Positions 5,192-39,871 of a DNA stretch of 51,902 nucleotides are shown piece by piece; the first letter of the stretch is position 1; every line of letters begins with the position of its first letter. Origin of the DNA: a virus. The position numbers and the translations under genes are program-made. The stretch is from positions 1 through 51,902 of IMG/VR virus record IMGVR_UViG_3300046516_001081, one strand, 5' to 3'. The notes beneath the pieces are model-generated. The model searched no databases. It was not told where the DNA came from and saw only the letters and a program-made list of their open reading frames with translations.

Positions 5192-7273
5192 TCAGTCGGC
5201 GCCGCGGGGATTGGCGTCCTCAAGCATGCGCGTCAGAACCGCCATGCCCTTCGTGGCAAGGTGCGTCAAATCTTCGATGTTCTCAGAGTAGCCGGCCGGG
5301 AACGCGTCGACCACTTCGGTGCATGCCATGCCCAGGCCGACCGTTTCCACCCGCATGCTCGCGGCGATGTTGCACGCCGCCCGAACGGTGTCGGGACCCA
5401 GCTCACACACGCCATCAGTGACAACCAGCAGGATGTGGCGGGTAGCATTGACGTTCCGCAGATACTCGGCCGCGCCTACGATCGCTTGCGACAGGGGCGT
5501 ATAGGACGTTCCTTGCATGCTCAGGATTGGCCACGCGGCATCCTGCACGCTGTGATCCCAGTCCTTTGCCACGTGTATGTCGGCGCCCCCCATTGCCGCC
5601 CGGGCGGGTTCACTGGGCGTGTGGAAGTGCACAACGCCTACTTTGGCATTGGCGCCCTCGGCCGCGCGCGCGATGTGCCACGCCGCCACCTGCGCCATAT
5701 CCATCCGCGCAATGCCCGTAGCGTAGCTTTGCGAGATATCCGCGCACATTGATCCTGAGCCGTCGATCAATATCAGCAGTGCGGTATCAATGCCGGGAGT
5801 GTCGTCGCGTTTCGAGAATACATCCAGGGCGCCGGTCCGCATGCGTACGATCGCGCGGCGATCAAGGCGCCCGCTCGTTTCATGGTGCGTGCGGCGATGA
5901 ATTTCGCTCGACACCAGCAACCGCGAAATCTGCCCGTGCAACACGCTGTTGCCGGGTAGCTTTTCGTTCAGCTTCGCCGCGGCGCCGGCGTTGTAATGCC
6001 GGTCCTGACGCACAAGCGAAGGGTCCCGAGGTTCAATCCAGGCGCGCGCCGTGTTGAGGCGGTGGGTTTTCGTTTCCCGTGCATGCGCTGCAAGGTCCTT
6101 GATCCCCGCCCGTTCCGCGATTGCTTTGACCATGTCGGCCAAATCGCTTGCCGGGTTGATTGCCTCGCCGTGGCCATCGGCCGCTGCGCCCTCGCTGTCC
6201 TCGCCGTCCTCGCCGTCCTGGGCCTCGCCAGGGGCGCCAGGGCCGTCCTCGCCGTCCTCGCCGTCCTCGCCGTCCTGGGCCTCGCCAGGGGCGCCAGGGC
6301 CGTCCTCGCCGTCCTCGCCGTCCTCGCCGTCCTGGGCCTCGCCAGGGGCGCCAGGGCCGTCCTCGCCGTCCTCGCCGTCCTCGCCGTCCTGGGCCTCGCC
6401 AGGGGCGCCAGGGCCGTCCTCGCCGTCCTCGCCGTCCTGGGCCTCGCCAGGGGCGCCAGGGCCGTCCTCGCCGTCCTCGCCGTCCTGGGCCTCGCCGTCC
6501 TGGGCCTCGCCGTCCTGGGCCTCGCCAGGGGCGCCAGGGCCGTCCTGGGCTTTATCCCCCTGGGCGGCGTTGCCCGTATCCTGCGGCGGTTTGGCGGCTT
6601 GCGCTGCCATGCCGGCTTCCATCGCCACCAGTTCCCGCGCCAAGCGATAGACTGCGAAGGTATCCTTGCACTTTGGCAATGCCTTCAGTGCATGCTCGAC
6701 AAGCGCCCGCACGTTCCGGGACATCGCACCCGCCAGGGGTGCTGCGGTTGGTATCGAATACTTGTTGCGCACCCGGCCCAGGATGCACGCCACATATGGC
6801 GCATCCGCCACCTTGGCGCCGATCACACGCCCGATATTGCGCGCCATGATTGTAGCTTCGTAGTGTTTTTGGGAAGCCAGTCCGGCGAGCACATTGCGCA
6901 ACGCAGGGAAGGCGCCGTTCCTGATTTCCTTCGCTTCAATGCGAACGTCCTCAAGAGCGTTTACCCAGTGCTGCACTCGCGGTCCCGCGCGCACCGCGGC
7001 TTGCCAGGAACCCAGATTAGTATGCAGCACGTGGCAGCACTCGTGCGCGATGTAGGCGACAAGCCTATCCGCCTCGGCGCGCGTTATCACGCTGTCGGGC
7101 GGCAGGCTTGGTAGGTTCATTGTTACGTCAGGATGCTGCCAGGATACGCTGGCGGTTTCGCCGCCATTGCACGTGACAGCGACGCGCCACGGCGCGCGGT
7201 TGTCCGCGCGCCGTGCGAGTATCTTGGTCGCCGTTTCAGTCGCCGCGGCGACCACTTCAATATACAAGGTCAT
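5192..7273 (-). CDS. VWA-domain protein with N-terminal HExxH motif and acidic repeat linker (CobT-like)
   Basis: 693 aa. Three parts are visible. Residues 1-240 contain HECCH (77-81) and, downstream, NALEDVRIE (105-113), a zincin-like layout with a possible Glu third ligand. Residues about 240-365 are a Gly/Glu/Asp-rich linker with six copies of GPGAPGEAQDGE. The rest is a von Willebrand A domain with the MIDAS motif LIDGSGSM starting near residue 502 (Asp504). It starts 5 bp after the AAA ATPase stop, so both are one leftward operon. MoxR/VWA pairs form chaperone-like remodelling machines, and N4-like phages are known to carry an AAA/VWA pair. The substrate here is unknown. Confidence 0.8.
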   Translation of the reverse strand: MTLYIEVVAAATETATKILARRADNRAPWRVAVTCNGGETASVSWQHPDVTMNLPSLPPDSVITRAEADRLVAYIAHECCHVLHTNLGSWQAAVRAGPRVQHWVNALEDVRIEAKEIRNGAFPALRNVLAGLASQKHYEATIMARNIGRVIGAKVADAPYVACILGRVRNKYSIPTAAPLAGAMSRNVRALVEHALKALPKCKDTFAVYRLARELVAMEAGMAAQAAKPPQDTGNAAQGDKAQDGPGAPGEAQDGEAQDGEAQDGEDGEDGPGAPGEAQDGEDGEDGPGAPGEAQDGEDGEDGEDGPGAPGEAQDGEDGEDGEDGPGAPGEAQDGEDGEDGEDGPGAPGEAQDGEDGEDSEGAAADGHGEAINPASDLADMVKAIAERAGIKDLAAHARETKTHRLNTARAWIEPRDPSLVRQDRHYNAGAAAKLNEKLPGNSVLHGQISRLLVSSEIHRRTHHETSGRLDRRAIVRMRTGALDVFSKRDDTPGIDTALLILIDGSGSMCADISQSYATGIARMDMAQVAAWHIARAAEGANAKVGVVHFHTPSEPARAAMGGADIHVAKDWDHSVQDAAWPILSMQGTSYTPLSQAIVGAAEYLRNVNATRHILLVVTDGVCELGPDTVRAACNIAASMRVETVGLGMACTEVVDAFPAGYSENIEDLTHLATKGMAVLTRMLEDANPRGAD
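6189..6550 (-). repeat. In-frame coding tandem repeat (acidic linker of VWA protein)
   Basis: Six copies of a unit coding GPGAPGEAQDGE plus one to three GED/GE(A)QD triplets, built from GTCCTCGCC-type 9-mers on the + strand. All copies stay in frame. Unit length varies in steps of 9 bp, as expected from slippage. It is not a CRISPR array, because there are no unique spacers. Confidence 0.9.
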
Positions 7274-24857: not shown

Positions 24858-26284
24858 TGCCCGATGCCGGCGTCTTCACGATCAGCGACTTCCTGGGTGG
24901 GCTGGACACGCGCAAGACTGCGCTGACGGCGCCATCGGGCACGTTGCGCATTCTTGAGAACGCCGTGCTCAACCCCGGCGGCGAAATCGAGAAGCGGCTG
25001 GCGTTCGTGCCGGTGGCGACGCTCACTTTCGACCAGTATATTTTCGGGCAGGGGGACAGCCTGCATACGTTCCGCTGGGAACTGGCCCCCGCCATCACGC
25101 CCGGGACATGTCCCGTGCCGATCGTCGGGCACACGCTTACCGGCGCGCTGGGCGGTGATCCCGTCATCCAGGATGTCGAAGCCTACACCGGCAGGTTCCA
25201 GGTCTCGATGGTCGACGGGGTGACCGGCGAGAGCGCCGTGTTCTGGGACGGGTTCCGGCTGGTCGACACCGGCTCCGGGGGTCTCCCCGCCTTCGGCAGC
25301 TACTCGCGCACGTTCCGTTCCAAGATGTATCGCATCGACGGCGAGTTCCTGCGCTTCTCGGGCATCGGCGATCCCGGCGTGCTCGATCCGGCCGCGCCCG
25401 CGCCGAACAACGGCGCCGGCTTCATCAACATCGCCGAGCAGGACCCTGATGCCGAGGAGCTTCAGGGGATGGAACTATACTACAACAGCATGGCGATCCT
25501 TTCGCGCCTGCAAACCACGATCTGGACGCTCGATCCTGATCCGGTGAAATCAGCGATCCAGCAGACCTTGCGCATCGGCACCGTGGCCCCGCACTCGATC
25601 CTGCAATTCGGGACCGGCGACGTGCTGTTCCTGTCCGACAGCGGCGTGCGCAGCCTGCACGCGCAGACGATGAACCTCTCGGCGTCGGTCACGGACGTCG
25701 GTTCGGCGATTGACCCGATTTTGATCCCGATCATCCGCGACAACCCGGTCCTGGCCGCGAAGGCGCGGGCCACCATCCAGCCGGTCAACGGACGCTACTG
25801 GCTGCATCTGGCCGGCAAGATTTATGTCCTGTCCTACTTCCCGTCCTCGAAGATCACCGCGTGGAGCGTGTTCGATCCGGGCTTCGAGGTGCAGGAGTTC
25901 GCGGTCGTGCAGAACCGGGTTTTCGCGCGCGGTCCCGATGGCACGGTCTATCTCTACGGCGGTCCCACGCTCAAGGAATATGATAGCTGCAAGGTAACAG
26001 TGCGCACGCCGCATCTGGCGATCGAAAGCCCCACCACTACCAAACGGCTCAAGTCGCTGGACGTGATGTGCGAGGGCAACTGGTCGCTCGCTGTCGGCAT
26101 GCTGCCGAACAACCTCGAAGCGTTCGAGTTGGTGGCCAACCTCGCGGACAACACCTACGGCGAAAAGTCGATCCCCTTCGCCGGCGTCGGTTCGCACATC
26201 GCCATGCACATGGAGCATCAGGCACCGGGGCCGGCCAAGCTCGCCGCCATCCACGTCAACCCTCAATTAGGCTGGACGAAGTAA
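24857..26284 (+). CDS. Tail nozzle / stabilisation protein (beta-propeller-like, tail tubular B role)
   Basis: 475 aa. The start is ATG 24857; GTG at 24854 is the only other nearby start. Nearly all beta strands, with repeats of W/F-G-type blades such as NGRYWLHLAGKIYVLSYFP and RTVFARGPDGTVYLYGG-like turns. This is the usual picture of podovirus nozzle proteins (T7 gp12 or P22 gp10 role). The N-terminus (GLDTRKTALTAPSGTLRILENAVLNP) matches their common opening. The last residues are GWTK; the same four codons plus stop reappear after the HNH gene. Confidence 0.75.
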   Translation: MPDAGVFTISDFLGGLDTRKTALTAPSGTLRILENAVLNPGGEIEKRLAFVPVATLTFDQYIFGQGDSLHTFRWELAPAITPGTCPVPIVGHTLTGALGGDPVIQDVEAYTGRFQVSMVDGVTGESAVFWDGFRLVDTGSGGLPAFGSYSRTFRSKMYRIDGEFLRFSGIGDPGVLDPAAPAPNNGAGFINIAEQDPDAEELQGMELYYNSMAILSRLQTTIWTLDPDPVKSAIQQTLRIGTVAPHSILQFGTGDVLFLSDSGVRSLHAQTMNLSASVTDVGSAIDPILIPIIRDNPVLAAKARATIQPVNGRYWLHLAGKIYVLSYFPSSKITAWSVFDPGFEVQEFAVVQNRVFARGPDGTVYLYGGPTLKEYDSCKVTVRTPHLAIESPTTTKRLKSLDVMCEGNWSLAVGMLPNNLEAFELVANLADNTYGEKSIPFAGVGSHIAMHMEHQAPGPAKLAAIHVNPQLGWTK

Positions 26285-26286
26285 CG

Positions 26287-26754
26287 ATGTCGAAACGAAC
26301 AGGACCCGTTCCGCATCACTGGTCGCACTGGGTCATCCCTGAACCCAACAGCGGTTGCTGGTTGTGGGACGGGGATGCTGATGGCCGGTATGGGCGGGCC
26401 ATGCTTGCCCGTCATGTTGGCGGTAAACGCCGCCGGCTGACGGTTGCGCGCATGGTGTGGGAAGAAACTAACGGACCCATCCCGTCCGATAAATGGGTGC
26501 TGCATCGCTGCAACGTCGCGGCCTGTGTCAACCCGGAACATCTCTATCTTGGCACGCACAAAGAGAACATGCAGGACATGGCGCGTTCCGGTGTCAAAAA
26601 GCGTGTCTACCGCACGCATTGTCCCCAGGGGCATCGTTACGACCTGCATTATTCGTATTCTTACCAGAACATCCTACAGGTGTGCTCGACCTGCAATCGA
26701 GAACGGTGCCTGAGCTACTACTACACGCGCAAGGCTGAGAGGGTTGCGACATGA
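26287..26754 (+). CDS. HNH homing endonuclease, free-standing
   Basis: 155 aa. ATG 3 bp after the nozzle-gene stop. The HNH core is clear: WVLHRCNVAACVNPEHLYLG (the His-Asn-His set with typical NPEHL), then THKENMQDM. An N-terminal strand region has PNSGCWLWDG, standard for the family, and a C-terminal CPQGH...CSTCNRE zinc pair likely aids DNA contact. It sits between virion genes and is flanked by a duplicated GWTK-stop segment, as expected for a selfish insertion. Sequence composition is slightly less GC than neighbours. Confidence 0.9.
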   Translation: MSKRTGPVPHHWSHWVIPEPNSGCWLWDGDADGRYGRAMLARHVGGKRRRLTVARMVWEETNGPIPSDKWVLHRCNVAACVNPEHLYLGTHKENMQDMARSGVKKRVYRTHCPQGHRYDLHYSYSYQNILQVCSTCNRERCLSYYYTRKAERVAT

Positions 26755-26937: not shown

Positions 26938-27471
26938 GTGACGAACGTGATCACCGTGAAGGGACCGCCGTTCGCCCGCGAGGAGGTCGCGCACATCGTG
27001 CGCAACCTGCGTGCACGGGACCAGGCTGAAATCTACGCCCTGCGCTGGAACAATGACCCCGACCAGCTCACCGACGAGATGCTCACCGTCGCGCACGCGA
27101 TGTGGCGCATCTTCTGTGTTGATGCCGAGCCGGTGGCGATGGCAGGCGTGATCCCGACCCGCCCCGGCGTCGTTTCCGCCGGGGCATTCGGGACCGAACT
27201 GTGGCCGCTTGTGGTGCGGCACGTCACCCGGTTTGCGCGCGACTGGTCTATCCCGCGTTTGCGCAAAGCTAACTGTCATCGGGCCGAGTGCTATGCCCTC
27301 GCCACCAACCACGACAGCCGTGGCTGGCTGATTTCGCTGGGGGCCGAAGAAGAAGCCTACCTGCGCGGCTATGGCCGCGATCAGCAGGATTTCATTCTTT
27401 ACGCGTGGAGACTGCAAGATGTGCATGGGCGGCGGCGGGAACTCGGGACCAAGCTACGGCATGTTTGCTGA
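26938..27471 (+). CDS. GNAT-fold internal virion protein (T7 gp13-like)
   Basis: 177 aa from GTG. The fold pattern is that of GNAT acetyltransferases: AEIYALRWN, then EPVAMAGVIPTRPGVVSAGAFGTE, and a helix plus RAECYALATNH, GWLISLGAEEEAYLRGYG, FILYAW. The final part matches podovirus internal protein A of the gp13 type, whose catalytic role is uncertain. It opens the internal virion protein cluster, a usual place. Overlaps the next gene by 53 bp in another frame. Confidence 0.7.
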   Translation: MTNVITVKGPPFAREEVAHIVRNLRARDQAEIYALRWNNDPDQLTDEMLTVAHAMWRIFCVDAEPVAMAGVIPTRPGVVSAGAFGTELWPLVVRHVTRFARDWSIPRLRKANCHRAECYALATNHDSRGWLISLGAEEEAYLRGYGRDQQDFILYAWRLQDVHGRRRELGTKLRHVC

Positions 27472-28336
27472 CCCGGCGGGCAACTGGCATTACGCCGAAG
27501 AAGGCATCCCCGGCGACTATCTGGCGCGCGGCGCGACCAGCGTGTCGCAGTATCAGACCATGGCCAGCCAGGACCTTTCCGACAAGCAGATCGCCGCCCA
27601 GAAGGAAATCGCCGACAAGCAGAACGCGTTCAACCAGCAGCAGTTCGACTATCAACAACAGCAGCAGGCGCTGGCGCAGAAGCAGGCCGACGAGGCGGCG
27701 GCGCGGCAGAGTGCCTACGACACCGGGCGGTCGCAGAACCTCGCCGAGGGCACCAAGTCGATCAACGACGCCTTTGCGCAGTTCAACGACAGTTATTTCA
27801 ACAAGTATGCCCAGGACTACATGTCCCAGGCCGGCGATCAGGTCGGCTACCAGAAGGACCTCGCCACCAAACAAAATACCTTCGACATGGCGCGTTCGGG
27901 GCTGACCGAAAGTCAGGCGAACGCCAACCAGTTGGGGCTGATCGAGGAGACCGCCGGCCGCACGCTCGCCGACCAGACCAAGACCGCTCAGAGCGAAGCG
28001 AACACACTGCGCACCAACGTCGCCGGCGAGAAGAACGCCTTGCTGGGACAGGTCCAGTCATCCGAGAGCCTCGGCTCGCCGATCGCCGGCAACACGATGG
28101 ACGACGTGAACCAGGCCCTGCAAACGCAAAAGAGCGCCATCTCCGGGATCAGCGGCAACGCCAACGACCTCGTGGCCTCGACCTCGGGCGTGCCGCAGGT
28201 GAGCACGCTGGGGGACATCTTCGGCGGCGTGCTGGGGAGCACCGGCAGCTATCTCGGCGGCGTGCAGGCGAACACGGCGCTGGGGCGCTACTACAGCGGG
28301 GCGGGCTTGACCGGCACCAATTCGGCCAAGTTGTGA
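27419..28336 (+). CDS. Internal virion protein, Gln/Ala-rich coiled (gp14-like)
   Basis: 305 aa. ATG at 27419 with GGAG upstream; the longer frame to 27371 lies inside the GNAT gene. The start is MCMGGGGNSG. Residues 45-110 are Gln-rich and helical (QIAAQKEIADKQNAFNQQQF), the rest is Ala/Ser/Thr-rich with repeated helical stretches and a Gly-rich end. It fits the gp14-type ejection protein that lines the trans-envelope channel. Homology cannot be proved by eye. Confidence 0.6.
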   Translation: MCMGGGGNSGPSYGMFADPAGNWHYAEEGIPGDYLARGATSVSQYQTMASQDLSDKQIAAQKEIADKQNAFNQQQFDYQQQQQALAQKQADEAAARQSAYDTGRSQNLAEGTKSINDAFAQFNDSYFNKYAQDYMSQAGDQVGYQKDLATKQNTFDMARSGLTESQANANQLGLIEETAGRTLADQTKTAQSEANTLRTNVAGEKNALLGQVQSSESLGSPIAGNTMDDVNQALQTQKSAISGISGNANDLVASTSGVPQVSTLGDIFGGVLGSTGSYLGGVQANTALGRYYSGAGLTGTNSAKL

Positions 28337-29382
28337 CGCCGTTCGTCATCCTTTCGCTGCCAAGGAGCCGGTCGCGCTGGCTGGCGTCGTTCTTGAGTTA
28401 TGGCGACTGGCAGTGCGGGCATGACGAAATCTGCCACTGCCGTTCGCTGGACGATGTCAAATCGTGGCTGGCGCAGCCCTGCACGGGCACGGTCGAGACG
28501 GCGGGCGCCGTCTTCTGGCGGCTCCTGTTGCAGTATCGGCCTGACGTGCGCGTGGTGACGATCCGCCGCCCGGTTGACGAAGTTCTGCACTCGCTCCGTG
28601 CGACCGGCGTGGTGTTCGACGACACGCTCGCGCCCCTGATGCACCGGCTCGACCGTAAGCTGGATCAGGTCGAGAAGCGTGTCCCGGGGGTGCGCTCGTT
28701 CGCCTTCGCCGACCTAAAAAGCGAGGCTTGCTGCGCCGAACTGTTCGAGCACTGCCTGCCCTACCCACACGACAACGACTGGTGGCAGCGGCTCGACCGG
28801 CTCAACCTGCAAATCAACCTTGGTCACATGATGCGGTATTTTCACGCCCACCGGCCGCAACTCGAAAAGGTCGCGAAGCAGGCGAAGCAGCGCATGCTGA
28901 GTGGCTTGCAGAAAACCCCGGAAATCGAGGGCGTCACGTTTCAAGAGGAAACGATGGCGTCCTACGATGAGGCCATCCCGCTGTTCCGGGAGCACGCGGT
29001 CATCACCGACCGCTCACCGGATGCTTACCTGTTCATCAATGTTCCCTTGCTGCGGCAGCTTGAGCGGATAGGGGCCTTGCAGATCATCACGGCCCGCAGC
29101 AACGGCAGGTTGTTCGGCTATCTGGTGTCCGTCGTCGGGCCGTCCCTGGAAGCCGAGGACAAGACGATTGCCGTGCATAGCGTGTTCTTCGCGTCACCCT
29201 CGATCCAGAACCTCGGCATGAAGCTGCAACGTGCGGCGGTAGAGACCCTGCGGGACAAGGGCGTCAGCGAGGTGCAGATGCGCGCCGGCGTGCTGGGCGC
29301 AGGGCCACGGCTGGGGGCGTTTTATCGCCGGATGGGGGCCGAGGATTTCGGCCAGCTTTACCGGCTCAGTCTGGAGCAATAG
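28333..29382 (+). CDS. Sulfotransferase-like domain fused to GNAT acetyltransferase domain
   Basis: 349 aa, GTG in a GTGA overlap. Residues 4-16 (FVILSLPRSRSRW) give a 5'-phosphosulfate-binding P-loop as in PAPS sulfotransferases, and RRPVDEVLHSL (78-88) fits their 3'-phosphate segment with Arg and Ser. A helical stretch follows. From about residue 215 the sequence fits GNAT: GALQIITARSNGRLFGYLVSV, then TIAVHSVFFASPS, NLGMKLQRAAVETL, and AFYRRMGAEDFGQLY. Both domains look complete. It sits inside the ejection-protein cluster. Substrate unknown; it may modify cell-envelope sugars or host proteins after injection. Confidence 0.7.
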   Translation: MTPFVILSLPRSRSRWLASFLSYGDWQCGHDEICHCRSLDDVKSWLAQPCTGTVETAGAVFWRLLLQYRPDVRVVTIRRPVDEVLHSLRATGVVFDDTLAPLMHRLDRKLDQVEKRVPGVRSFAFADLKSEACCAELFEHCLPYPHDNDWWQRLDRLNLQINLGHMMRYFHAHRPQLEKVAKQAKQRMLSGLQKTPEIEGVTFQEETMASYDEAIPLFREHAVITDRSPDAYLFINVPLLRQLERIGALQIITARSNGRLFGYLVSVVGPSLEAEDKTIAVHSVFFASPSIQNLGMKLQRAAVETLRDKGVSEVQMRAGVLGAGPRLGAFYRRMGAEDFGQLYRLSLEQ

Positions 29383-29387
29383 GGGCC

Positions 29388-30446
29388 ATGGGTATCTCCG
29401 CAGGAGCAGCTTCCGCCATCGCTGCCGGCGTCAGCGCCGCGACCGCTGTGGGCGGGACCGTCATGTCCTCGCAGGCATCGGCTAGGAACGCGGCGACGAT
29501 TGCCAACCAAAACCGAGCCATGGAGACCGCCCAGAACCAGGGCTTCATGCAGCGCATGCTGGCCTCGAATGCGCAGACCGAAGCGCAGCGCGCGACGATG
29601 GACCAGACCATGCAGGACAGGAACGCCGCCTTCACGCAGATGCGTGAGGGGCAGATGGGGGCGATGAAACGCCAACAGGACGTGCTCTCCGCGGAGAACA
29701 CGCAGGAGGACGCGCTCCGGGCCACGGGCGATCAGGCGGGACAACAGTTGCTGACGAGCACGAGCGGTCCCACGCTCGCCGCGGCGCAGGACAACTCCCG
29801 GGCGCAGGCGGCGGCGCTTCTCTCCAGCGCCACCGCGCCGCCGATCCCGGGACCGACAGGGACCGATCCCAACGCCGGGCAAGCCGAAACCAAGCAGGCC
29901 ACCGCGCGCCGGCTGGCCGAGGCGGCCACCAACATCCGCACCTACGGCGGCAAGGTCGCCAACGTGGAGAGCTATGCCCAGCCGGGACAGACGGTGTCGG
30001 ATGCGATTGCCGCCAACCGGTTCGGTATCATGCCGGCGCAGACCGCTGAGGCGCTGCTCAAGAGCGGATCGGGGGTGCGCCTCCTGCCCTCGCAGATCGA
30101 ATACCAGGGCGCCACCAACGCCGGGACCGCGACCGACGCGCTGATCCAGTCGCGGGGACAAAGCGGCCTGGATGCTGCCGCGCTCTCCTATGGCAACGCC
30201 GTCGACATCGCCAACCTGGGACAGCAGGACGCCAGCACGATCGCCGCCAACCGGGCGAAGCAGCAGGAAGCCGACGCGGCCTATCAGGCGAGCCTGGGGA
30301 ATTTGGTCACGGGTGTGGGCAACCTCGGTCTCTACGGGACCGGGTATCTCAGTGGTGGTCCCGACTGGCTGAAGAAGCTCCTGCCGGGGGGCAGCGGCGG
30401 GACCGGCAACCCCGCGGACATGGCGGCGACTAACATCAAGCTTTAA
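29388..30446 (+). CDS. Internal virion protein, Ala/Gln-rich
   Basis: 352 aa. ATG after AGGGG, 5 bp from the previous stop. It opens with a hydrophobic glycine-rich helix (GAASAIAAGVSAATAVGG), then a long Gln/Met-rich helical region (MQRMLASNAQTEAQRATM), and ends with Gly-rich turns and DWLKKLLPGG. The style matches podovirus ejection proteins of moderate size. It lies in one transcriptional block with neighbours. Exact role unknown. Confidence 0.55.
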   Translation: MGISAGAASAIAAGVSAATAVGGTVMSSQASARNAATIANQNRAMETAQNQGFMQRMLASNAQTEAQRATMDQTMQDRNAAFTQMREGQMGAMKRQQDVLSAENTQEDALRATGDQAGQQLLTSTSGPTLAAAQDNSRAQAAALLSSATAPPIPGPTGTDPNAGQAETKQATARRLAEAATNIRTYGGKVANVESYAQPGQTVSDAIAANRFGIMPAQTAEALLKSGSGVRLLPSQIEYQGATNAGTATDALIQSRGQSGLDAAALSYGNAVDIANLGQQDASTIAANRAKQQEADAAYQASLGNLVTGVGNLGLYGTGYLSGGPDWLKKLLPGGSGGTGNPADMAATNIKL

Positions 30447-30461
30447 CAAGGGACGCTAACC

Positions 30462-32576
30462 ATGCCCTACACGCCCTTTGCCAACACCGACCAGGGTCTC
30501 GCTACTCTCGGCAAGGCGTTGTTCCCCGATCCCGCGGTGATCGCGCAGACCGGCTATTACGGCGCCGCGCAGCGCGAGAAGATGCTCTCGGGCAACAAGA
30601 TCATGGGGGAGCAGGCGCTAACCAACAACTGGATACACAGGATCGACAGAAACGGCACGGTCCACTTCATGCCCGCGCCTCGTGGCTCGCCGGTCGGGGC
30701 GCCGCCGATCCCGGCGACCGACGAGGGCACGCCCATGGTGGGCGGCGGGACCTATGGAGCTTCACCGGGGGCATACGGTGCGCCCCCGCCCCCGCCCGCG
30801 CCTTCCCTGTCCGCAACGGTCACCCCCCAGGCGCCGCCATCGGGCGCGGCGGTGTCCGACTATATGAATACGCACCCGAACCCGGTGACCTCGGCGACGC
30901 CGCCCCCGCAGTCGTCCCCCGCACCGAACTCGGGAGCGCCGCCGGCGCCGAACACGACCGGATCGGACGGCAGTGTGCCGAACAACGACGCCGGCAGCGC
31001 GGTCATCCATCCCGGCACCTTCCAGGCCCCCGGCGGCGGCATAAAGATGGCGCCCCCTGCGCAGGCGGATGGCTCGCCGGCCCCGCTCGCGTTCAACCCG
31101 ACGCTGATATCGGCGCTGGGTGCGGCAGGAGGCGTCAACCCTAATGCGCTGAACAGCACGATGGCCGCCTATGTCGAGCAGGAAGGCAGAAAGAGTGGTG
31201 TGATCGACGACAAGACTGCTGACAACTTGTCGAGCGCGTTCGGCAACACGCAACCGCTGGCGTCGGCGACGACGATCAGGACCACCGGCATGAACAACGC
31301 GACGACGCTTGCGCAAACGAATATCCAGGAGGCGGGGAGCGACCGCCGCAAGCAGATGGATATTGCCGCTGCCGTGGCGGCTGCGCGTGCCGTGCCGTTC
31401 AAATCCCAGCCGGGCGGTCCCGGCACGCAGGTCATCACGACGACGACCGGGGAAGCCGTCGACAAAGGCTTACAGCCGTTCGACCAGGCGTCGGACACCG
31501 CGGCCAGGAACCTGACGTCGATCGCAGAACCAGGGACCGAGCGCGAACTGAAGGTCCCGGTGTCCTCGGTCCCGCCCGCAGGCACTCGTGCTTACTCGCC
31601 GACGCGCGAAGCGGCGGCCAATACCTACGTGCAAGTCGTCGACAAGCAGACCGGCGCGCGGGGCCGCATATCGTTGGCGGATTTCAACGCAGACGGTGGT
31701 CGCAAATGGATGGAGGACAAGGTCGCTCCAATCCCAACCCTCGAAATGGCCTCGGCGCAGACGGCGGTGGATGCGGTGCAAAAGAATATCTACGTCCCGC
31801 CGCCGGCCACAATCCAGGAGATGAAAACAAGCGATCTGGCGCCGCCACGTCATTACGCTGACGGCAATACACAGTTGGTGATGCGCACGGCCCAACTCTA
31901 CAAAACCGATGATCAGACGCACGGCGACTGGGCTGCTTCAGCCACCAAAGCCACGCAGCAGCTTATTGCCGCGGGTGTGCTGATGGACCCGAAAGATGCT
32001 GCGGCTGACAGGCAGAGTTGGTTCGGGCAGCCCGAGGCCACGAAGCCGCATCGCTTGCAGATGCAGGACCCGACCGGCACCAAAACGGTAACCTATCACC
32101 TGATCGATCCGCCGAAACTCGGGACGGCGGTGACGACCCCGTCGCCGGGGACGACCGCGGCACAACCTGGGGCGACCGCGGCCCCCGCGGCTTCCACGTC
32201 GAGCGCGCCGACATCTTCCGCGAACCTGCCCGCTTATGCGTCCCCGGCTCCGGGGACTGCCCCGGAGACCGGTGGTCTCGGGGCGACGGTGATAACCCCC
32301 GCTCCCGTGGCGCCCCCCGCGGTCAGCCACCCGTCGCAGCCGCCTCCGGCCGCGCCAGCGCCTCCTGTTGTTCTCTCTAACCGGGCGCCACCACGTGCGC
32401 CGCTTCGCCCCGCGGCGGGTTTCGGGGTGCCCCAGCCGCTGCCCCCTGGTGCGATTGCCGTGGCGCCGCAGGGCGCACCGGAAGGCGCGGTTACCCGGGC
32501 CAGCGACGGGACCATGGTCGTTGCCCGCGGCGGCTTCGTCTACCCCGCTCAACCCTCACCCGAGATGGGACGGTAA
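30462..32576 (+). CDS. Low-complexity internal virion protein, 704 aa
   Basis: AAGGGAC precedes the ATG. Residues 1-85 look folded (GLATLGKALFPDP, EKMLSGNKI, HRIDRNGTVHFMP). From there to about 180 and again after 550 the sequence is dominated by Pro, Ala, Ser and Gly (APPPPPAPSLS, TAAQPGATAAPAAS). A central helical part (residues 200-540) contains SGVIDDKTADNLSSAFG. Long disordered arms are usual for proteins that leave the capsid unfolded during ejection. No enzyme motif was seen. Confidence 0.55.
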   Translation: MPYTPFANTDQGLATLGKALFPDPAVIAQTGYYGAAQREKMLSGNKIMGEQALTNNWIHRIDRNGTVHFMPAPRGSPVGAPPIPATDEGTPMVGGGTYGASPGAYGAPPPPPAPSLSATVTPQAPPSGAAVSDYMNTHPNPVTSATPPPQSSPAPNSGAPPAPNTTGSDGSVPNNDAGSAVIHPGTFQAPGGGIKMAPPAQADGSPAPLAFNPTLISALGAAGGVNPNALNSTMAAYVEQEGRKSGVIDDKTADNLSSAFGNTQPLASATTIRTTGMNNATTLAQTNIQEAGSDRRKQMDIAAAVAAARAVPFKSQPGGPGTQVITTTTGEAVDKGLQPFDQASDTAARNLTSIAEPGTERELKVPVSSVPPAGTRAYSPTREAAANTYVQVVDKQTGARGRISLADFNADGGRKWMEDKVAPIPTLEMASAQTAVDAVQKNIYVPPPATIQEMKTSDLAPPRHYADGNTQLVMRTAQLYKTDDQTHGDWAASATKATQQLIAAGVLMDPKDAAADRQSWFGQPEATKPHRLQMQDPTGTKTVTYHLIDPPKLGTAVTTPSPGTTAAQPGATAAPAASTSSAPTSSANLPAYASPAPGTAPETGGLGATVITPAPVAPPAVSHPSQPPPAAPAPPVVLSNRAPPRAPLRPAAGFGVPQPLPPGAIAVAPQGAPEGAVTRASDGTMVVARGGFVYPAQPSPEMGR

Positions 32577-32579
32577 GCC

Positions 32580-33200
32580 ATGGCCAGCACTCTCTCGGCC
32601 ACTATTGCGCCGCAACCCGAGGGCATAACGGCTCCCGGTTTCCGCGGCGAACTGATCAACGCTGAAAGCAGCGGTCAGAATGTGACTAACCAGGCCGAAG
32701 GTGCCGAGGGCTTCTATCAGATCACCGGCCCCACGTGGCAGGACTTCGCGCCCCGCGCGGGGATCGACCTGAAACAGTATCCCAGCGCGATCAGCGCGCC
32801 TTACGATGTCCAGAGCAAGGTCGCCGACGCGATCCCGATGGGGCGGTGGGGGCCGCGGACGCAGAAAATCCTCGCCGCTAAATATGGCGTGCTCGATCCC
32901 AACCAGCCGATGGGCGTGTTCGCCCAGCGGTTTGGCGCCGCCCCCGGCAGCCCGGGCGCGCCCATGCCCACTGTCCCGGGCGCACCAGTCCCGCAAGCGG
33001 TGGTGCCCCAGCCGCCTGTCCCCGCGGCGCCTGTCCCCGCGGCGCCTGTCCCCGCGGCGCCTGTCCCAGAGGCAGCACCTGTCCCAGCGGCGCCCCTGCC
33101 CCCACCGCCGGCGGTCCCGCAAGCGTCCCTTCCCGGGGCGCCCACCAGTCTGGCTGATGCGTTCGCACAAGCGGCGCGACGGCGGCAGGCGTTCGCGTGA
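32580..33200 (+). CDS. Lytic transglycosylase-like internal protein, 206 aa
   Basis: Residues 21-60 hold the SLT pattern: FRGELINAESSG with catalytic candidate Glu29 in ESSG, and EGFYQITGPTW (43-53), the second hallmark. The length of the catalytic part is about 110 residues; the last 80 are a Pro/Ala repeat (VPAAPVPAAP). It probably cuts peptidoglycan to let the ejection channel pass, as the N-terminal domain of T7 gp16 does. It could also serve as lysis enzyme because no separate endolysin was found. It overlaps the next gene as GTGA. Confidence 0.7.
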   Translation: MASTLSATIAPQPEGITAPGFRGELINAESSGQNVTNQAEGAEGFYQITGPTWQDFAPRAGIDLKQYPSAISAPYDVQSKVADAIPMGRWGPRTQKILAAKYGVLDPNQPMGVFAQRFGAAPGSPGAPMPTVPGAPVPQAVVPQPPVPAAPVPAAPVPAAPVPEAAPVPAAPLPPPPAVPQASLPGAPTSLADAFAQAARRRQAFA

Positions 33201-36200
33201 CGCCATTCGACGATCCCACGCTGACGGGCACGCTGCCCAACGGGGCGACGTTCGACTTCGGCAAACCGGTCACTGCGCCTGCGCCCGCTCCCGCGGCACC
33301 GGCACCCGCCCCTGCGCTCGCCGGCACCTTGCCCAACGGAGCGACGTTCGATTTCGGCCAACCGGCCGCGGCGCCCGCCGCTGCGCCCGCCGCTGCGTCC
33401 GCTGCTGCGCCAGCCCCTGCGCCGACGCCGACGCCGACACCCGCGCCTGCGCTCACCGGCACCTTGCCCAACGGGGCGACGTTCGATTTCGGGGCGCCTG
33501 CTGCGGCGGCCGCCCAGCCAGCCGCGCCGGTCCCTGCGCCTACCGCGGTTCCCGCCCCTGTCCCGGCTGCGGCCCCCGCGCCGGGAGCCGACACCCCCGG
33601 GTTCTTCGGCCGCATCGGGTCAGCGTTCATGCAGGGCGTCAGTGAGCTACCCAGCGACCTGACCGTGCATCCGTTCACGCCTTCCACGGGCGACGAGCAA
33701 CCAGCACCCACTGATTTCGCCGGGGGTGCCGCCTATGGCTTGGGAAAGTCCCTGCCGGCGATCGGTGGCGGCGCGATCGGCGCGATCGGTGGCACTGCGG
33801 TTGGCGGTCCCTTGGGCGGCATCGCCGGCGCTGCTCTCGGGACCTTTGCCGGGATCGTCGCGCCGGAACTGCGGCCGGCTTACCTGGAAGGACTGAAATC
33901 CGGCCTCGACCCCGACGCGGCCGTCAACCACGCGATCACCCAGGCGCTGGCGCAGGGCACGTTCGGCGCGATCACCACGCCCTTGTTCGCGTTTTCGCCC
34001 TTCAAGAGTTTGGTCGGGCGGATGCTGTTCGGCGCGACCGTGACCGGCCCCGCCGTGGGCACCGTTGGCCGCGTTGCGGTCCCGGCCGTCACGGGACAAC
34101 CGCTGCCTTCAGCCGAGGACCTGCTCAAAGGGGCGGCGACCGACGTGGTCACCGGTGCCGTGCTCGCCCCGGCGATGGAGGGCGTGCACGTTACGGCGCA
34201 ACGCGCGGGATTGCTGCCGGAAGAGTCCCCGGCCCTGACCCCAAAGCCGAAGCCGGGGGTCCCAGAGCCGACGCCGGGGGTCCCAGAGCCGACGCCGGGG
34301 GTCCCAGAGCCGACGCTGGTGGCCCCAGAGACGAAGGGGGTGGCCCCAGAGCCGACGCCGGTGGTCCCAGAGCCGACGCCGGTGGTCCCAGGGGTCCAGG
34401 CGACAGAACCGACGCAGCCAGAAGGACAACCGCCAGCGCCGGGAGCACCCGGCACATGGATGTGGAAGTCGAAAGACTACGACCTGCCGGTAACACCAAC
34501 CGGCGAAGAACACCCCGGGCCGGATGGTCGGATTTACGTGCGCGTGCAGGCATCGGACGGCAGCGATACTTTCGTGCCAAAAGACGAGCTTATCTTCACT
34601 CCTGCGACGCCGCAACCGTCCGGGGCAGAGCCGCTTCCAGAGCCGCCACCCGGGCCTGGAGCCGTTCCACCTCCGTCTGAAAACCGTCCTGGCGAGACTG
34701 GAACCGGAGAAGCAACCCCTCCACCCGGCGAAGCCCCGACCACCCTGTCCGCTGGCGTTGATACCGGCGTTGGTGCCGGCGCTGGTGCCAGTCGCGACGC
34801 AGCCGTGCGCCCAGGTGAAACCCCCGCTGCCACCAGTGAGACCACCAACCAGGGAACCCTGGGCGCTGAGCCTCCACCGACATCGTCTGTCTCTCCTCCT
34901 GAACAAAGGACGCCCGTCGATGATCATACACCACCCGTGTCAAATGCTCCTGCCCCTGGACCTGCCAATGTCCCCGCCGGTGAGCGCGTGGTCCCGGGGA
35001 CCGATACCGTCACCCAAACCGGCACGCAGGCCCAACCTGCCGTTGGTGTCGAGGCAGGGCGTGTTGACGCTGGTCAGACTGGCGTCCCAGCCCCTGGGGG
35101 TGAAGCTGGCGGCGGATTAACTCCTGAGACCCGTGCTCGCGTCGACACGCTTGACGGGCAGATCGACCGGCTGAACGCGACGATCGCCGCGTTACCGGCG
35201 GATGCGCCAACCCGGGCCACGCAGGAGGACCAACTCGCCAAGCTGCGCGCGGAGCGGGACCGGCTAGCCGGCACCCCGTCGCCCTCGCTCGCCGTGGCGG
35301 CGGAGCGTCAGACCCCCGCCGAGAAGGAAGCCGTGCAGCGTGCCGCGGCGGGCGTGTCCGAGACAGCCACCGACGCGCCAACCCATCCGCCAACGCCCGA
35401 ACTCGACGCGCGTATCGCCAAGGCGCAGGCGGCGCTCGACAGCACGCCGCGTACGGACGCGATGCACTGGACGCACCTGCGCGACCTGACGCGCCTGGAA
35501 CAGTCCCGGGAGCAGGCCCGCGCGATCGGCCGCGGCGAAGCGGTCGACCCTGCGCTGGCGCTGAACCCCGACCAGCAGGCACGGGTCAACAAGCTCAACA
35601 AACAGATCACCCCGCTTGATGAGCGCGTGCGCGCGCTGGGGGACCTCGAAACCCGCACCCCCGTCCAGGAGCGCGAGTTCGCGGCCAGGCAGGACCAGCT
35701 TGCCAAGCTGCGCCGCGCGCGCGACGCGCTCGTGGGACAGCCGGACGCCGAGAAGATCGCTTCACGGTTCTGGCGCCCCAAACCCAAACCCTTCGTGCCC
35801 CCCAAAGAGCCAACGGGCGAGAAGACGTTCGGGGACTACCAATTCCAGAACGGGGCCAGCGTCTACACCAAGGCGTTCGCCGATGCCGGCTACGACCCGC
35901 GCCTCGCCACCAGCCTGCCTTTGAAAAAGCAGATAGACATTCTGACGCGCCAGATGGGCGACCAGTTCGGGTTCAGGACCGTCAAGATCGCCGCCGATCA
36001 TCCCGGCGGCTACACGGTGATGAACCAGATGCTGAACACCTACCGCGCCATGCACGACATGATGGCGTCGCTCAAGCTGCCGCTGGATCAGGCGAGCCTG
36101 GGGGGCAGGCTGGCGCTGCATATAGAGCCGATGCGCGAGGCCAAGAAAGGCGGCGGGTATTTCGGCATGTACGACCCCAACACCCACTCGCTCCATCTCG

Positions 36201-39200
36201 CTGACGGCGCCAACTCGTTCGCGCACGAGTGGGTGCACGCGCTCGACCACCAGCTCACCACGATAATGGGCACCGACCCTCACATGGAGCACATGTTTTC
36301 CACGTTCACGCGCGTGCGCGGCCTCGACCCGAAAGACGATGTCAACGCCCGCTTCGCCAAGCTCTTGAACACGATCTTCTATGACGAGGGCGCGCTCGCG
36401 CAGCGGAAGATGCAGTTGGACCTGGATGCGCAAAAGGTCGACGCCAAGGGCAAGCCAACCCGAGCCGCGCTGGATGCGCAAGAACGCTTGCGCGCGATCG
36501 AAAGCGGTGCCGACAGCAAGGCGCACATCAAGAGCAGTGAATACCGCAAGATGGCCGAGAGTATCCCCGACCCCTACTGGCGCAGCGAACGGGAATTACT
36601 GGCCCGGGCCGGCGAGGCGTGGGTGGCGCGGCAGATGGAGGTCAACGGCGTCAACCCCCGCGGCGTGGCGATGCCGGACGAAGCCTACGCGCGTGGGCTG
36701 GCCCGGCGGCTACGGGTGACGTTTCCCAAGAACGACGAGCGGGTCGCCATCCATCAGGCGTTCAGCGATCTGTTCGAGGCGCTGCGTGCGCAGCAGATTT
36801 TCGGCTCGCCCGAGGCAGCCCTGTCCCATGATTACGGCCTGTCCGACCCGGCCGGCTACATGCGCGCGGCACGGCTCGCCGGCGGTGCACCGGCGACGCG
36901 CAGCCTCGCCGTGCGGTTCATGGACGTGGGCAACAATTTCCGCAAACTGCAAAGCAGCATGCGGGAGAACGCAATCTATGATCGCGCCCGCCCGGTGTCT
37001 TCGCGGCCCTGGTCGAAGCGCACCGCGCTCACGATCGGGCACATCTTCAACGCCAAGCTGACGGATTTCGACAGCATCATCAAAGCCAACAACCCAGCCG
37101 TGCAGCGGGTATTGCAGAAGCTGCGGGACAAGTTCGGGACCCCGCACGGCAGCGACCATTACGCCGGCGGTGAAGGCTTCGAGCAGGCGTCCCGTGCGCA
37201 GAAAACCAAGTGGGATAACAGGCTGGCGGCGCTCCTGGAGCGGAACGGTCTCCTGGAGAAGATGACCGACCTCGAAAGCGCCATGATCCACCACGGGCTG
37301 ACCACGGGACAGGGGACCTACCAGGGACAGACCATCCCCGCCAACGTGCGCGCGGCGATCGGGGACATAAGGCTGCTGCACAACCAGGTTTTCGACGCAG
37401 CAAAGGGTGCCAAGCTCGATATCGAATACATCGCGCAGCACTTCCCGCGTTTCTACGACCAAGCCAAGATCACCGCGAACCAGGCTAACCGGGCCGGGTT
37501 CGTGCGCGATGCCCATCGCCTCTATCGCTTCATGTTCGACAAGGAGGTCGGTGCCCCCGGGGACAACCCGGACGCGCTGTTGAAGCGATACCGGCAAATG
37601 CCGAAAGCCGAAAAGGGCGTCATCGAGGGTAACAACCCGGGCGTGAACGCGGGCATGAAAAGGCTGGGCAAGAACCTCGCCGAACAGCGCCGGATCGAGG
37701 AGCAACTACGACAAGGCGCGCCCAACGCGGCAGGGCTGCAAGCACGGCTGGCCACGCTGCAAGCCGAAGCCGAGCAACTTGCCCAGACGCACCACGATGC
37801 GATCGGGGACCACGTTGCCGGCGTGGCCAGCAACGACTGGTATGCGCGCGTGCAGATGGGCTACCCCGGTGACTTCGAGAAGATCGGTCCCTCGGGACGC
37901 TTCCTCAACCACCGTTCGCTGCCGCCCGAAGCCGACCAGATCATGAAGAACTGGATGCAGACCGACATCCGCACGGCGCTGCCGGACTACTACAAACAGG
38001 TGGCGCGCAAGGTTGCCTACGCGGAACGCCTCGGCGCCAAGGGCGAGTTCATCGAGGAACAACTCCGACAAGCCGTCGACGCCGGCCTGCACCAGCAGGA
38101 CGCCAACTACATCCGCGGGATCATCCAGCAGATCACCGGCTACGGCGAGAACGGCAACTCCACCCACCGGAGGCTCAGCCCGGTGATGAACGGCCTCAAC
38201 GCCTACGGCGCCACCATGCTGATGCCGCGCTCGATGTGGACCAGCCTGCACGAGTTCGCGGTCCCCGGCCTCGTCACCGGGGACGTGCGCGTTGCCATGA
38301 AGGCGTTCGGCAACCTCGTCGGTGGCATCCTGAAAACCGAGGACGCGCACGGTCGCGCCGAGCTAGCCGACCTGGTGGGGGTGACCAACTCGAAACTGGC
38401 GGAAAGCCTATGGACTTCACGTGTGGGCGATGATTATTCCGACACGCCGAAGATCGCGCACTTCATGCAGCGTTTTTACCGCATGATCGGGCTGAACGCG
38501 CTCACCACCGCGATCCGCCGTGCCAATTTCGGCGCGCTCGACTGGCATTTGGGACAGGTGTCGCGGCACCTCTTGAGCACGGAGCAGGGGCCGATCTGGG
38601 ACCTGCGCCGGGACCGTGCGCGGCGGTTGTTCAACGAGTTGGGTATCTCGCCGCAGATGCATGATCAGTTCGCGCAGTGGAAAGCCGCGCAGGACGGCAT
38701 GCCCGAGTTCAGCGACCTCGCCGATCCGACCAACGGCAACGCGGTCCTCTATGGGCGCGCCATGCGCACGCTGTCCGACTGGTCCTCGCAGTCGCCCTAC
38801 AAGGGCGATGTCCCTGCCGCCGTGGAGAACCCCTGGGGCCGGATGATCTTCCAGCTTCAGCACTACAATTACGCATTCATGCGCAACGTGCTCGATCCGG
38901 CGGTCGCGAACATGGAGCGGGATTACAAGTTCATGCGCGACCGCGCCGCGGGACAGGGCGCGGGCTGGCTGTCCCAGCGCATGCACGGGATCGGCGGCCT
39001 CGCATACTCGGGCGCGGGCTTCGCCTCCGCGGCAGGCGGGCTGCTCATGTCCTCGCTGGCGACCTCGATGATCCGCGAAGCTCTCTTCAACGGGGACAAG
39101 TGGGACGAGCACAAGGAGAAGGGCGATTTCGGTGATTGGCTTCAGGGGCTGGCGATGCAGCGATCGGGCCTCACCGGCACGCTCGATCCGATCGTGCAGC

Positions 39201-39871
39201 TGGTGAACAATCTCCGCTACAACGCCGACCTCGCCACGCTCACGTCGGGCGCGTCGATTTCCTTCATCGGCAATCAGGTGGTGGACCTGCTGCGCGCCAC
39301 GGCGAACGCCTTCGACCCGGAGGCCCCGGAGACGAACACCAAGGCGCACGACGCGACCAAGAGTTTTTACAATCTGTTCGGCATCCCGGCGATGGCCTAC
39401 ATGGCCAACGGCGTGACCCTTGCCGGCGTGCCTTTGGTCTCGCCGGCGGCGAGTTTCGCGTTCCAGAAACTAACGACGGCACAGACTGCAAACCGGTTCG
39501 CCGATGTGGTGACGGGCAAGAAGGGGACCAAGCTGCCGGCGCCTGAACCGGAGGGCGCACTCGGTCCCAGCAAGGCGGAACTCAGTGGCGGTGATGACCT
39601 CGAACTCGGCCCCAGCGCAGAGGAGCTAAGCGGCACTCCCAGCGACAAAGAGAAGACCGGCGGCATTGTCGGCGGCAGCGTGCCCTGGGGGCTGCTCGAC
39701 GATTTCATCGCCCCGGGGTGGAAGGTTATGCAGCCCGCGCTGGGATCGCTGCCCGGTCCCCTGAAACTTGGTGCCGTTGGCGCCGCCGGCGTTGCCGCGG
39801 CGGGCAAGTTCCTGTCCAATATGGCGCCCTACCGCAACGCGCCCCCGCCGGCCAAGAAAGCCGCGCCGTAG
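33197..39871 (+). CDS. Giant internal virion / polyvalent-type protein with zincin motif, 2224 aa
   Basis: GTG start overlapping the transglycosylase stop. The N-terminus has three copies of L(T/A)GTLPNGATFDFG (near residues 9-22, 41-54, 86-99) separated by Ala/Pro linkers. A Gly/Ala-rich hydrophobic region (about 180-225) may touch membranes. VPEPTPG repeats follow. Around residue 1010 SFAHEWVHALDHQ contains HExxH (1010-1014), as in metallopeptidase domains of large polyvalent phage proteins. The rest is mostly helical, with another hydrophobic Gly-rich stretch near 1935. It is the end of the virion block and probably the main ejection protein. Confidence 0.7.
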   Translation: MTPFDDPTLTGTLPNGATFDFGKPVTAPAPAPAAPAPAPALAGTLPNGATFDFGQPAAAPAAAPAAASAAAPAPAPTPTPTPAPALTGTLPNGATFDFGAPAAAAAQPAAPVPAPTAVPAPVPAAAPAPGADTPGFFGRIGSAFMQGVSELPSDLTVHPFTPSTGDEQPAPTDFAGGAAYGLGKSLPAIGGGAIGAIGGTAVGGPLGGIAGAALGTFAGIVAPELRPAYLEGLKSGLDPDAAVNHAITQALAQGTFGAITTPLFAFSPFKSLVGRMLFGATVTGPAVGTVGRVAVPAVTGQPLPSAEDLLKGAATDVVTGAVLAPAMEGVHVTAQRAGLLPEESPALTPKPKPGVPEPTPGVPEPTPGVPEPTLVAPETKGVAPEPTPVVPEPTPVVPGVQATEPTQPEGQPPAPGAPGTWMWKSKDYDLPVTPTGEEHPGPDGRIYVRVQASDGSDTFVPKDELIFTPATPQPSGAEPLPEPPPGPGAVPPPSENRPGETGTGEATPPPGEAPTTLSAGVDTGVGAGAGASRDAAVRPGETPAATSETTNQGTLGAEPPPTSSVSPPEQRTPVDDHTPPVSNAPAPGPANVPAGERVVPGTDTVTQTGTQAQPAVGVEAGRVDAGQTGVPAPGGEAGGGLTPETRARVDTLDGQIDRLNATIAALPADAPTRATQEDQLAKLRAERDRLAGTPSPSLAVAAERQTPAEKEAVQRAAAGVSETATDAPTHPPTPELDARIAKAQAALDSTPRTDAMHWTHLRDLTRLEQSREQARAIGRGEAVDPALALNPDQQARVNKLNKQITPLDERVRALGDLETRTPVQEREFAARQDQLAKLRRARDALVGQPDAEKIASRFWRPKPKPFVPPKEPTGEKTFGDYQFQNGASVYTKAFADAGYDPRLATSLPLKKQIDILTRQMGDQFGFRTVKIAADHPGGYTVMNQMLNTYRAMHDMMASLKLPLDQASLGGRLALHIEPMREAKKGGGYFGMYDPNTHSLHLADGANSFAHEWVHALDHQLTTIMGTDPHMEHMFSTFTRVRGLDPKDDVNARFAKLLNTIFYDEGALAQRKMQLDLDAQKVDAKGKPTRAALDAQERLRAIESGADSKAHIKSSEYRKMAESIPDPYWRSERELLARAGEAWVARQMEVNGVNPRGVAMPDEAYARGLARRLRVTFPKNDERVAIHQAFSDLFEALRAQQIFGSPEAALSHDYGLSDPAGYMRAARLAGGAPATRSLAVRFMDVGNNFRKLQSSMRENAIYDRARPVSSRPWSKRTALTIGHIFNAKLTDFDSIIKANNPAVQRVLQKLRDKFGTPHGSDHYAGGEGFEQASRAQKTKWDNRLAALLERNGLLEKMTDLESAMIHHGLTTGQGTYQGQTIPANVRAAIGDIRLLHNQVFDAAKGAKLDIEYIAQHFPRFYDQAKITANQANRAGFVRDAHRLYRFMFDKEVGAPGDNPDALLKRYRQMPKAEKGVIEGNNPGVNAGMKRLGKNLAEQRRIEEQLRQGAPNAAGLQARLATLQAEAEQLAQTHHDAIGDHVAGVASNDWYARVQMGYPGDFEKIGPSGRFLNHRSLPPEADQIMKNWMQTDIRTALPDYYKQVARKVAYAERLGAKGEFIEEQLRQAVDAGLHQQDANYIRGIIQQITGYGENGNSTHRRLSPVMNGLNAYGATMLMPRSMWTSLHEFAVPGLVTGDVRVAMKAFGNLVGGILKTEDAHGRAELADLVGVTNSKLAESLWTSRVGDDYSDTPKIAHFMQRFYRMIGLNALTTAIRRANFGALDWHLGQVSRHLLSTEQGPIWDLRRDRARRLFNELGISPQMHDQFAQWKAAQDGMPEFSDLADPTNGNAVLYGRAMRTLSDWSSQSPYKGDVPAAVENPWGRMIFQLQHYNYAFMRNVLDPAVANMERDYKFMRDRAAGQGAGWLSQRMHGIGGLAYSGAGFASAAGGLLMSSLATSMIREALFNGDKWDEHKEKGDFGDWLQGLAMQRSGLTGTLDPIVQLVNNLRYNADLATLTSGASISFIGNQVVDLLRATANAFDPEAPETNTKAHDATKSFYNLFGIPAMAYMANGVTLAGVPLVSPAASFAFQKLTTAQTANRFADVVTGKKGTKLPAPEPEGALGPSKAELSGGDDLELGPSAEELSGTPSDKEKTGGIVGGSVPWGLLDDFIAPGWKVMQPALGSLPGPLKLGAVGAAGVAAAGKFLSNMAPYRNAPPPAKKAAP

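Follow-up and report, generated by a model that had tools for sequence, protein, structure and literature searches.

A phage-borne protein joining a sulfotransferase fold to a GNAT fold lies in the ejection slot of many uncultured phages

Results

Organization of the locus

The stretch of viral DNA analysed here, called the window below, comprises 51,902 nucleotides (IMG/VR record IMGVR_UViG_3300046516_001081, positions 1 to 51,902). It contains a cluster of genes arranged like those of T7-type internal virion proteins, in which one open reading frame codes for a two-domain protein, hereafter the fusion:

26938-27471, + strand: T7 gp13-like ORF (PHROG 308)
27371-28336, + strand: small internal-protein-like ORF in the gp14 position, preceding the fusion; no family match
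28333-29382, + strand: fusion gene, 349 aa, GTG start, stop included (ORF, Pfam and PHROG matches, fold model)
29388-30446, + strand: small internal-protein-like ORF in the gp14 position, with a hydrophobic N-terminus; no family match of its own
30462-32576, + strand: 704 aa ORF in the gp15 position; no family match
32580-33200, + strand: 206 aa transglycosylase-like ORF (PF06737, 0.00045, below cut-off)
33197-39871, + strand: 2224 aa ORF in the gp16 position, with the polyvalent-protein-associated domain LPD1 (PF18796, 1.2e-9)

The fusion gene had been delimited in a preliminary description, made from the window's letters alone, and these coordinates proved exact. The ORF before it ends 4 nt inside the fusion gene, whose GTG start is taken to be right because relatives start at the same point or within a few residues. 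The whole-length AlphaFold model of the protein has a pLDDT of 90.4 and a pTM of 0.81. The gp13-like GNAT that had been reported 0.9 kb upstream does belong to the T7 gp13 family and ends 861 nt before the fusion; its GNAT nature is hinted at by a weak match to PHROG 4470 (0.012).

Between the gene in the tail-tube position and the gp13-like ORF, positions 26068-26754 hold an ORF that we take from its motif to be HNH-like. It has no match in the relatives, except after the gp13-like ORF in two loci (L008 and L010), a distribution as for a mobile homing gene. Elsewhere in the window, a 626 aa ORF (2505-4385) carries an AAA_25 domain (2.7e-31), and five other large ORFs scanned alongside it gave no Pfam match.

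The N-terminal half has a sulfotransferase fold

Family-wide comparisons used an alignment of 55 sequences, the window's own and those of 54 out of 89 loci, hand-picked to limit near-copies and cut pieces. The features of the N-terminal half are as follows:

28333-28911, + strand: sulfotransferase-fold domain, residues 1-193 (Pfam, PHROG, fold searches, hhalign)
28360-28380, + strand: candidate PAPS 5'-phosphosulfate loop, residues 10-16 PRSRSRW; P10, R11, R13 and W16 in 55/55
28420-28428, + strand: H30-D31-E32; H30 in 55/55, E32 in 52/55 (Q in 3)
28495-28500, + strand: E55-T56, both in 55/55; E55 aligns with an Asp of the sulfotransferase SgdX2
28564-28593, + strand: candidate 3'-phosphate-binding segment, residues 78-87 RRPVDEVLHS; R78, R79 and S87 in 55/55, E/D83 in 49/55

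In the window's protein, this half matches Pfam PF17784 (Sulfotransfer_4; 26.8 bits, cut-off 22.8) and PHROG 10855 (4.7e-9). Among the 55 members, 16 match PF13469 and 13 match PF17784 (E<=0.01), and all match PHROG 10855, which is labelled "hydrolase". NCBIfam returned no family for any of them, and the best match of a PDB sequence search, a designed helix bundle with a common 21-residue motif, is taken as chance.

Folded alone, the N-domain reached a pLDDT of 93.0 and a pTM of 0.89 (AlphaFold). Foldseek returned two PDB matches below 0.001, both of them tyrosylprotein sulfotransferases. In the VIA fold comparison, the top ten rows were all sulfotransferases (Z 12.8 to 11.5), headed by the tyrosylprotein sulfotransferase 5wri (Z 12.8, 158 aligned residues, 3.2 Å); a sugar kinase came next with Z 11.5, so that the gap between the folds is only about 1.3 Z units. 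Given this small margin, sequence-profile controls were added. Against nine bacterial PF13469 sulfotransferases, the profile of the N-half family gave an hhalign probability of 93.2% (E 3e-7), with PRSR placed on PRSG and E32 on the invariant Glu of PF13469 without gaps. Against ten shikimate kinases the same profile gave 0.4% and no match, and the GNAT-half profile gave 0.1% and no match against sulfotransferases. A small-molecule kinase was also considered for this half and rejected: although kinases rank close in fold, the sequence has no GK[ST] motif and gives no match to the shikimate kinase profile. Foldseek, VIA, the PF13469 profile and the negative controls thus agree on the sulfotransferase fold, on which the preliminary description had staked its reading.

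Sulfotransferase motifs are conserved, with an unusual PAPS loop

Ten residues of the N-half are invariant in the 55 aligned members: P10, R11, R13, W16, H30, E55, T56, R78, R79 and S87; S12 is found in 54 of them. The PAPS loop reads PRSR[ST]xW. Of the PAPS-type P-loop proposed for this protein, the basic residue expected at the Lys/Arg position is there (R11), whereas the typical Gly is not: at the position where sulfotransferases usually have it stands the invariant Arg13. The 3'-phosphate segment that had been proposed was recovered as a candidate, since the RXXXDXXXS motif given in PMC11625862 fits R79-x3-E/D83-x3-S87, although hhalign sets R78 instead of R79 against the canonical Arg, so that Ser87 falls one place out of register. 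For the DKMP lysine of bacterial sulfotransferases, the PF13469 hhalign comparison showed no conserved counterpart in the fusion family.

An excerpt of PMC11625862 restricts the definition of sulfotransferases to the fold plus two residues, and here R11 and S87 provide both. The same excerpt names one exception to the usual PAPS loop, Stf0, with alanine and arginine. R78 and E99 of human TPST2 are named as catalytic in a passage of PMC5562738; their spacing of 21 residues equals that from R11 to E32 in the fusion. Judged from the alignment, the candidate catalytic bases are E32, which we presume to play this role (52/55), and H30 and E55 (both 55/55); a published passage on Asp91 of a schistosome sulfotransferase does not decide the catalytic base of the fusion. 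Three proteins (L033, L047 and L060) carry Gln at position 32 and are natural variants of the presumed catalytic Glu32.

Taken together, the N-half shares with tyrosylprotein and bacterial PF13469 sulfotransferases the fold, a PRS loop with Arg, a Glu at +21 and the Arg...Ser 3'-phosphate segment. It differs from them in being shorter, in its loop Arg, in the lack of a conserved equivalent of the DKMP lysine, in being joined to a GNAT domain and in being phage-borne.

The C-terminal half is a GNAT related to stand-alone slot proteins

Two features were assigned in the C-terminal half:

28924-29382, + strand: GNAT-fold domain, residues 198-349, stop included (model, fold search, PHROG 1249, hhalign)
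29206-29229, + strand: pyrophosphate-loop region, residues 292-299 QNLGMKLQ; G295 in 55/55, Lys/Arg at position 297 in 52/55

The GNAT fold claimed for this half was borne out: in the full-length model, residues 200-348 match 3d8p best, with a Z of 16.0 over 140 aligned residues at 2.5 Å. PHROG 1249 (acetyltransferase) matches the window's C-half weakly (0.0026), and 46 of the 55 members match it at E<=0.01. A search of phages with the window's C-half alone gave no match. The canonical GNAT pyrophosphate loop is Q/RxxGxG/A. In the fusion family it is non-canonical, with Pro at position 292 in 31/55 members and the Lys/Arg at position 297 already listed. Hence, of the two group-transfer domains announced in the preliminary description, both folds are present, whereas a canonical acetyl-CoA pyrophosphate loop is not. 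Structure prediction of the two halves, the check that had been proposed, gave a sulfotransferase fold followed by a GNAT fold. Both halves are under purifying selection, with dN/dS values of 0.08-0.28 in 9 pairs, several of which have dS near saturation.

The C-half belongs to the same family as stand-alone GNATs of PHROG 1249 (hhalign 98.5%). Four of these (L093-L096), carried by Zobellviridae Vibrio phages, a Manatee Spring phage and Rhizobium phage RHph_N65, occupy the same slot, between a head-closure or gp13-like gene and a small internal protein; unlike the fusion, they are devoid of a sulfotransferase domain. A fifth stand-alone GNAT record (L097) lies near the terminase and not in the ejection slot. 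RHph_N65 (L093, 5004-5919) encodes its slot GNAT right beside a gp13-like ORF. Because both are present there, as in the window, they are not substitutes for each other.

T7 gp13 (PF11090, PHROG 308) resembles the fusion in its position within the ejection cluster, directly before gp14. However, gp13-like proteins show no profile relation to either half: the window's gp13-like ORF family gave 0.2% against the GNAT half, so that by sequence the latter was rejected as the gp13 homologue, and the N-half profile gave 0.4% and no match. A separate gp13-like ORF upstream also makes it unlikely that the fusion is simply this phage's gp13. Against the P22 gp14 family (PF11039, PHROG 651), hhalign gave 1.0%, in a comparison with a single sequence.

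The N-domain likewise has stand-alone homologues, in PHROG 10855/38824 (Casjensviridae; Pseudomonas phages PAKlein3, Ab18 and Ab19), which have no GNAT and are annotated as hypothetical or hydrolase; the hhalign probability with the protein of Suzuki, one of these relatives, is 98.0%. In the three records examined, distant relatives from siphophages lie outside the virion module and the ejection slot. Since GNAT and N-domain relatives each stand alone, the fusion joins two independently known phage modules. Two proteins of Pseudomonas and Stenotrophomonas phages (L215, 4001-4552; L090, 7980-8558), annotated "hydrolase" or hypothetical, are probably sulfotransferase-fold proteins as well, and the "hydrolase" label of the PHROG looks misleading.

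The fusion is widespread among uncultured phages

Scanning IMG/VR with a pattern yielded 192 confirmed relatives of the fusion, of which the best 80 were kept in each of two scans, so that divergent architectures are under-sampled. Of 177 loci fetched from IMG/VR and genomes, some of them pieces of the same contig and with ten annotated phage records (L090-L099) left aside, 173 have one open frame over both halves. This single frame, together with the two predicted folds, confirms that two domain types share one polypeptide and rules out a one-off fusion or a frame artefact. The 173 loci encode 94 distinct proteins, which group into 73 clusters at 90% identity, with a lowest pairwise identity of 35%. 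The search in other phages that had been suggested therefore found the fusion in at least 73 protein clusters (90%).

Two of the four remaining loci are cut by contig ends, and the other two (L024 and L100, one contig) have an intact N-domain alone. In L024, this lone sulfotransferase domain (5986-6573) occupies the ejection slot; the gene upstream of it is tail-fibre-like and the one downstream gp14-like. The N-domain tree, whose outgroup branch is very long, places it beside the fusion protein L037 (support 96/89) within a set of nine (90/85), which suggests that L024 lost the GNAT half. L004, whose first residues are in another frame, was scored as a fusion by its remaining part; this near-identical contig (3112-3285) changes frame after 57 residues, either through a genuine mutation or through an error in sequencing or assembly.

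Outside viral contigs, a scan of genome contigs (84,980 species, one genome each) found three copies, in a Nevskia MAG, in Azospirillum rugosum and in a Beijerinckiaceae MAG. Profile searches detected the fusion in one of 385 alphaproteobacterial genomes and in two of 82 from Azospirillaceae. The Azospirillum rugosum strain with the gene is IMMIB AFH-6, where it lies in a prophage-like region (locus L088). No cultured-phage record (n=50,697) has the fusion over 80% of its length. Searches of phages with the full-length Azospirillum copy and with the Beijerinckiaceae N-half gave no match, nor did a search of plasmids.

The slot is kept while the neighbouring genes diverge

When twelve proteins of the window's cluster and its flanks were compared with the loci by tblastn, only the fusion matched in 77/89. 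The proteins encoded directly downstream were examined in a set of 55, made of the window's gene and 54 of 83 genes delimited by a greedy ORF picker that merges some genes. In this set, 35 match PHROG 598 (DNA ejection) and two match another ejection family, which upholds the placement of the fusion in the ejection cluster. Single-linkage grouping puts the genes directly downstream of the fusion in 56/83 loci into one family. In one phage with such an ejection-family gene, two of the upstream genes encode the head closure protein Hc3 and the major head protein. Conservation over 367 pairs (400 drawn, those with fusion identity <90% kept) was 58.2% for the fusion, higher than for the head closure (42.5%) and ejection (40.3%) proteins. 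According to an excerpt of PMC8954989, the gene of the gp14-like factor (P22 gp7), described as an outer-membrane pore, adjoins gp15 and gp16 in such operons.

Discussion

Phages carry the fusion as an accessory of the ejection slot. A GNAT in the podovirus ejection slot is already known; its fusion with a sulfotransferase sets the window's protein apart. PMC6775973 reports GNATs adjacent to internal virion proteins and compares them, as to morphogenesis, with T7 gp13, and an excerpt of PMC10580990 calls the function of sulfotransferases in OM43 phages unclear. The literature searched, with subscription journals and preprints mostly outside its coverage, holds no description of a sulfotransferase-GNAT fusion. 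Phage sulfotransferases are annotated now and then; here, one has a fixed place and shares a frame with the slot GNAT.

Judged from its motifs and predicted structure, the protein is most likely a working sulfotransferase carried on the slot GNAT, the C-half being the GNAT that other podoviruses keep alone in the slot and the PAPS-type domain standing in front of it. Its conservation in this slot points to a conserved chemical function linked with the ejection module. As to catalysis, the PRSR loop (Arg11), together with Arg78/79 and Ser87, would hold PAPS, and Glu32, or possibly Glu55 or His30, would deprotonate the acceptor, to which the sulfate would then be transferred. The GNAT half would mainly dock on the ejection module and may still acylate. 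As to acceptor and timing, we favour, with a probability of roughly 40%, modification of a part of the ejection apparatus during particle assembly in the infected cell. Gene position alone gives no proof that the substrate is an ejection protein.

The labels of model-phage proteins bear on this point. T7 gp13 is a "probable scaffold protein" and P22 gp14 a "virion stability factor", which raises both modification during assembly and a purely structural role. By the same token, these slot neighbours in model phages, being assembly or stability factors, speak against a protein packaged with the internal proteins and delivered to the new host, where it would modify host proteins or small molecules early. 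Such an ejected effector is unlikely, but it is in keeping with the ejection slot and gains from the presence of LPD1 in the 2224 aa protein nearby in this cluster. Indeed, passages of PMC5512222 predict that polyvalent proteins are delivered with the DNA and count GNATs among their protein-modifying domains. The fusion resembles these proteins in that enzyme domains are joined in one protein near delivered proteins. It differs from large polyvalent proteins in having two domains only and in that its delivery is putative; the word "sulfotransferase" is absent from the main text of that paper.

In a purely structural role, the protein would be a catalytically dead assembly factor in which both folds persist to bind a partner such as the pore protein or the portal, as suggested for T7 gp13. 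The non-canonical CoA loop, the Arg in place of Gly in the PAPS loop, the three Gln32 proteins and the likening of GNAT-type neighbours of internal virion proteins to T7 gp13 all point this way. Nevertheless, the residues that hardly vary lie together in the motifs expected for cofactor and base, and the window already has a gp13-like ORF; we regard a dead protein as quite improbable. Least plausible is a late envelope modifier that would sulfate or acylate host surface sugars or lipids to prevent re-adsorption of progeny or exclude other phages: bacterial sulfotransferases, NodH (PF13469) among them, do act on glycolipids and surface sugars (an excerpt of PMC11625862), but the fusion has neither a signal nor a membrane segment (its hydropathy over 19 residues peaks at 0.89), and a constant place beside ejection genes in unrelated phages is unexpected for a cargo gene.

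Modification of an ejection component thus remains our preferred reading. Put more broadly, and as a doubtful proposal, podoviruses may possess a sulfotransferase-acyltransferase dedicated to chemical modification of the ejection pore or its partners, or one that is ejected itself. The fixed place of the domain, in phages whose surrounding genes are mostly unrelated, gives a hypothesis on the ejection machinery that can be tested, for which specific residues and an Azospirillum strain can be named. That many uncultured phages, otherwise unrelated, have this two-domain protein at one and the same position hints at an unrecognised chemical step in assembly or entry. If the proposal is true, sulfation would be an unrecognised step of phage DNA delivery, common to many unrelated uncultured phages.
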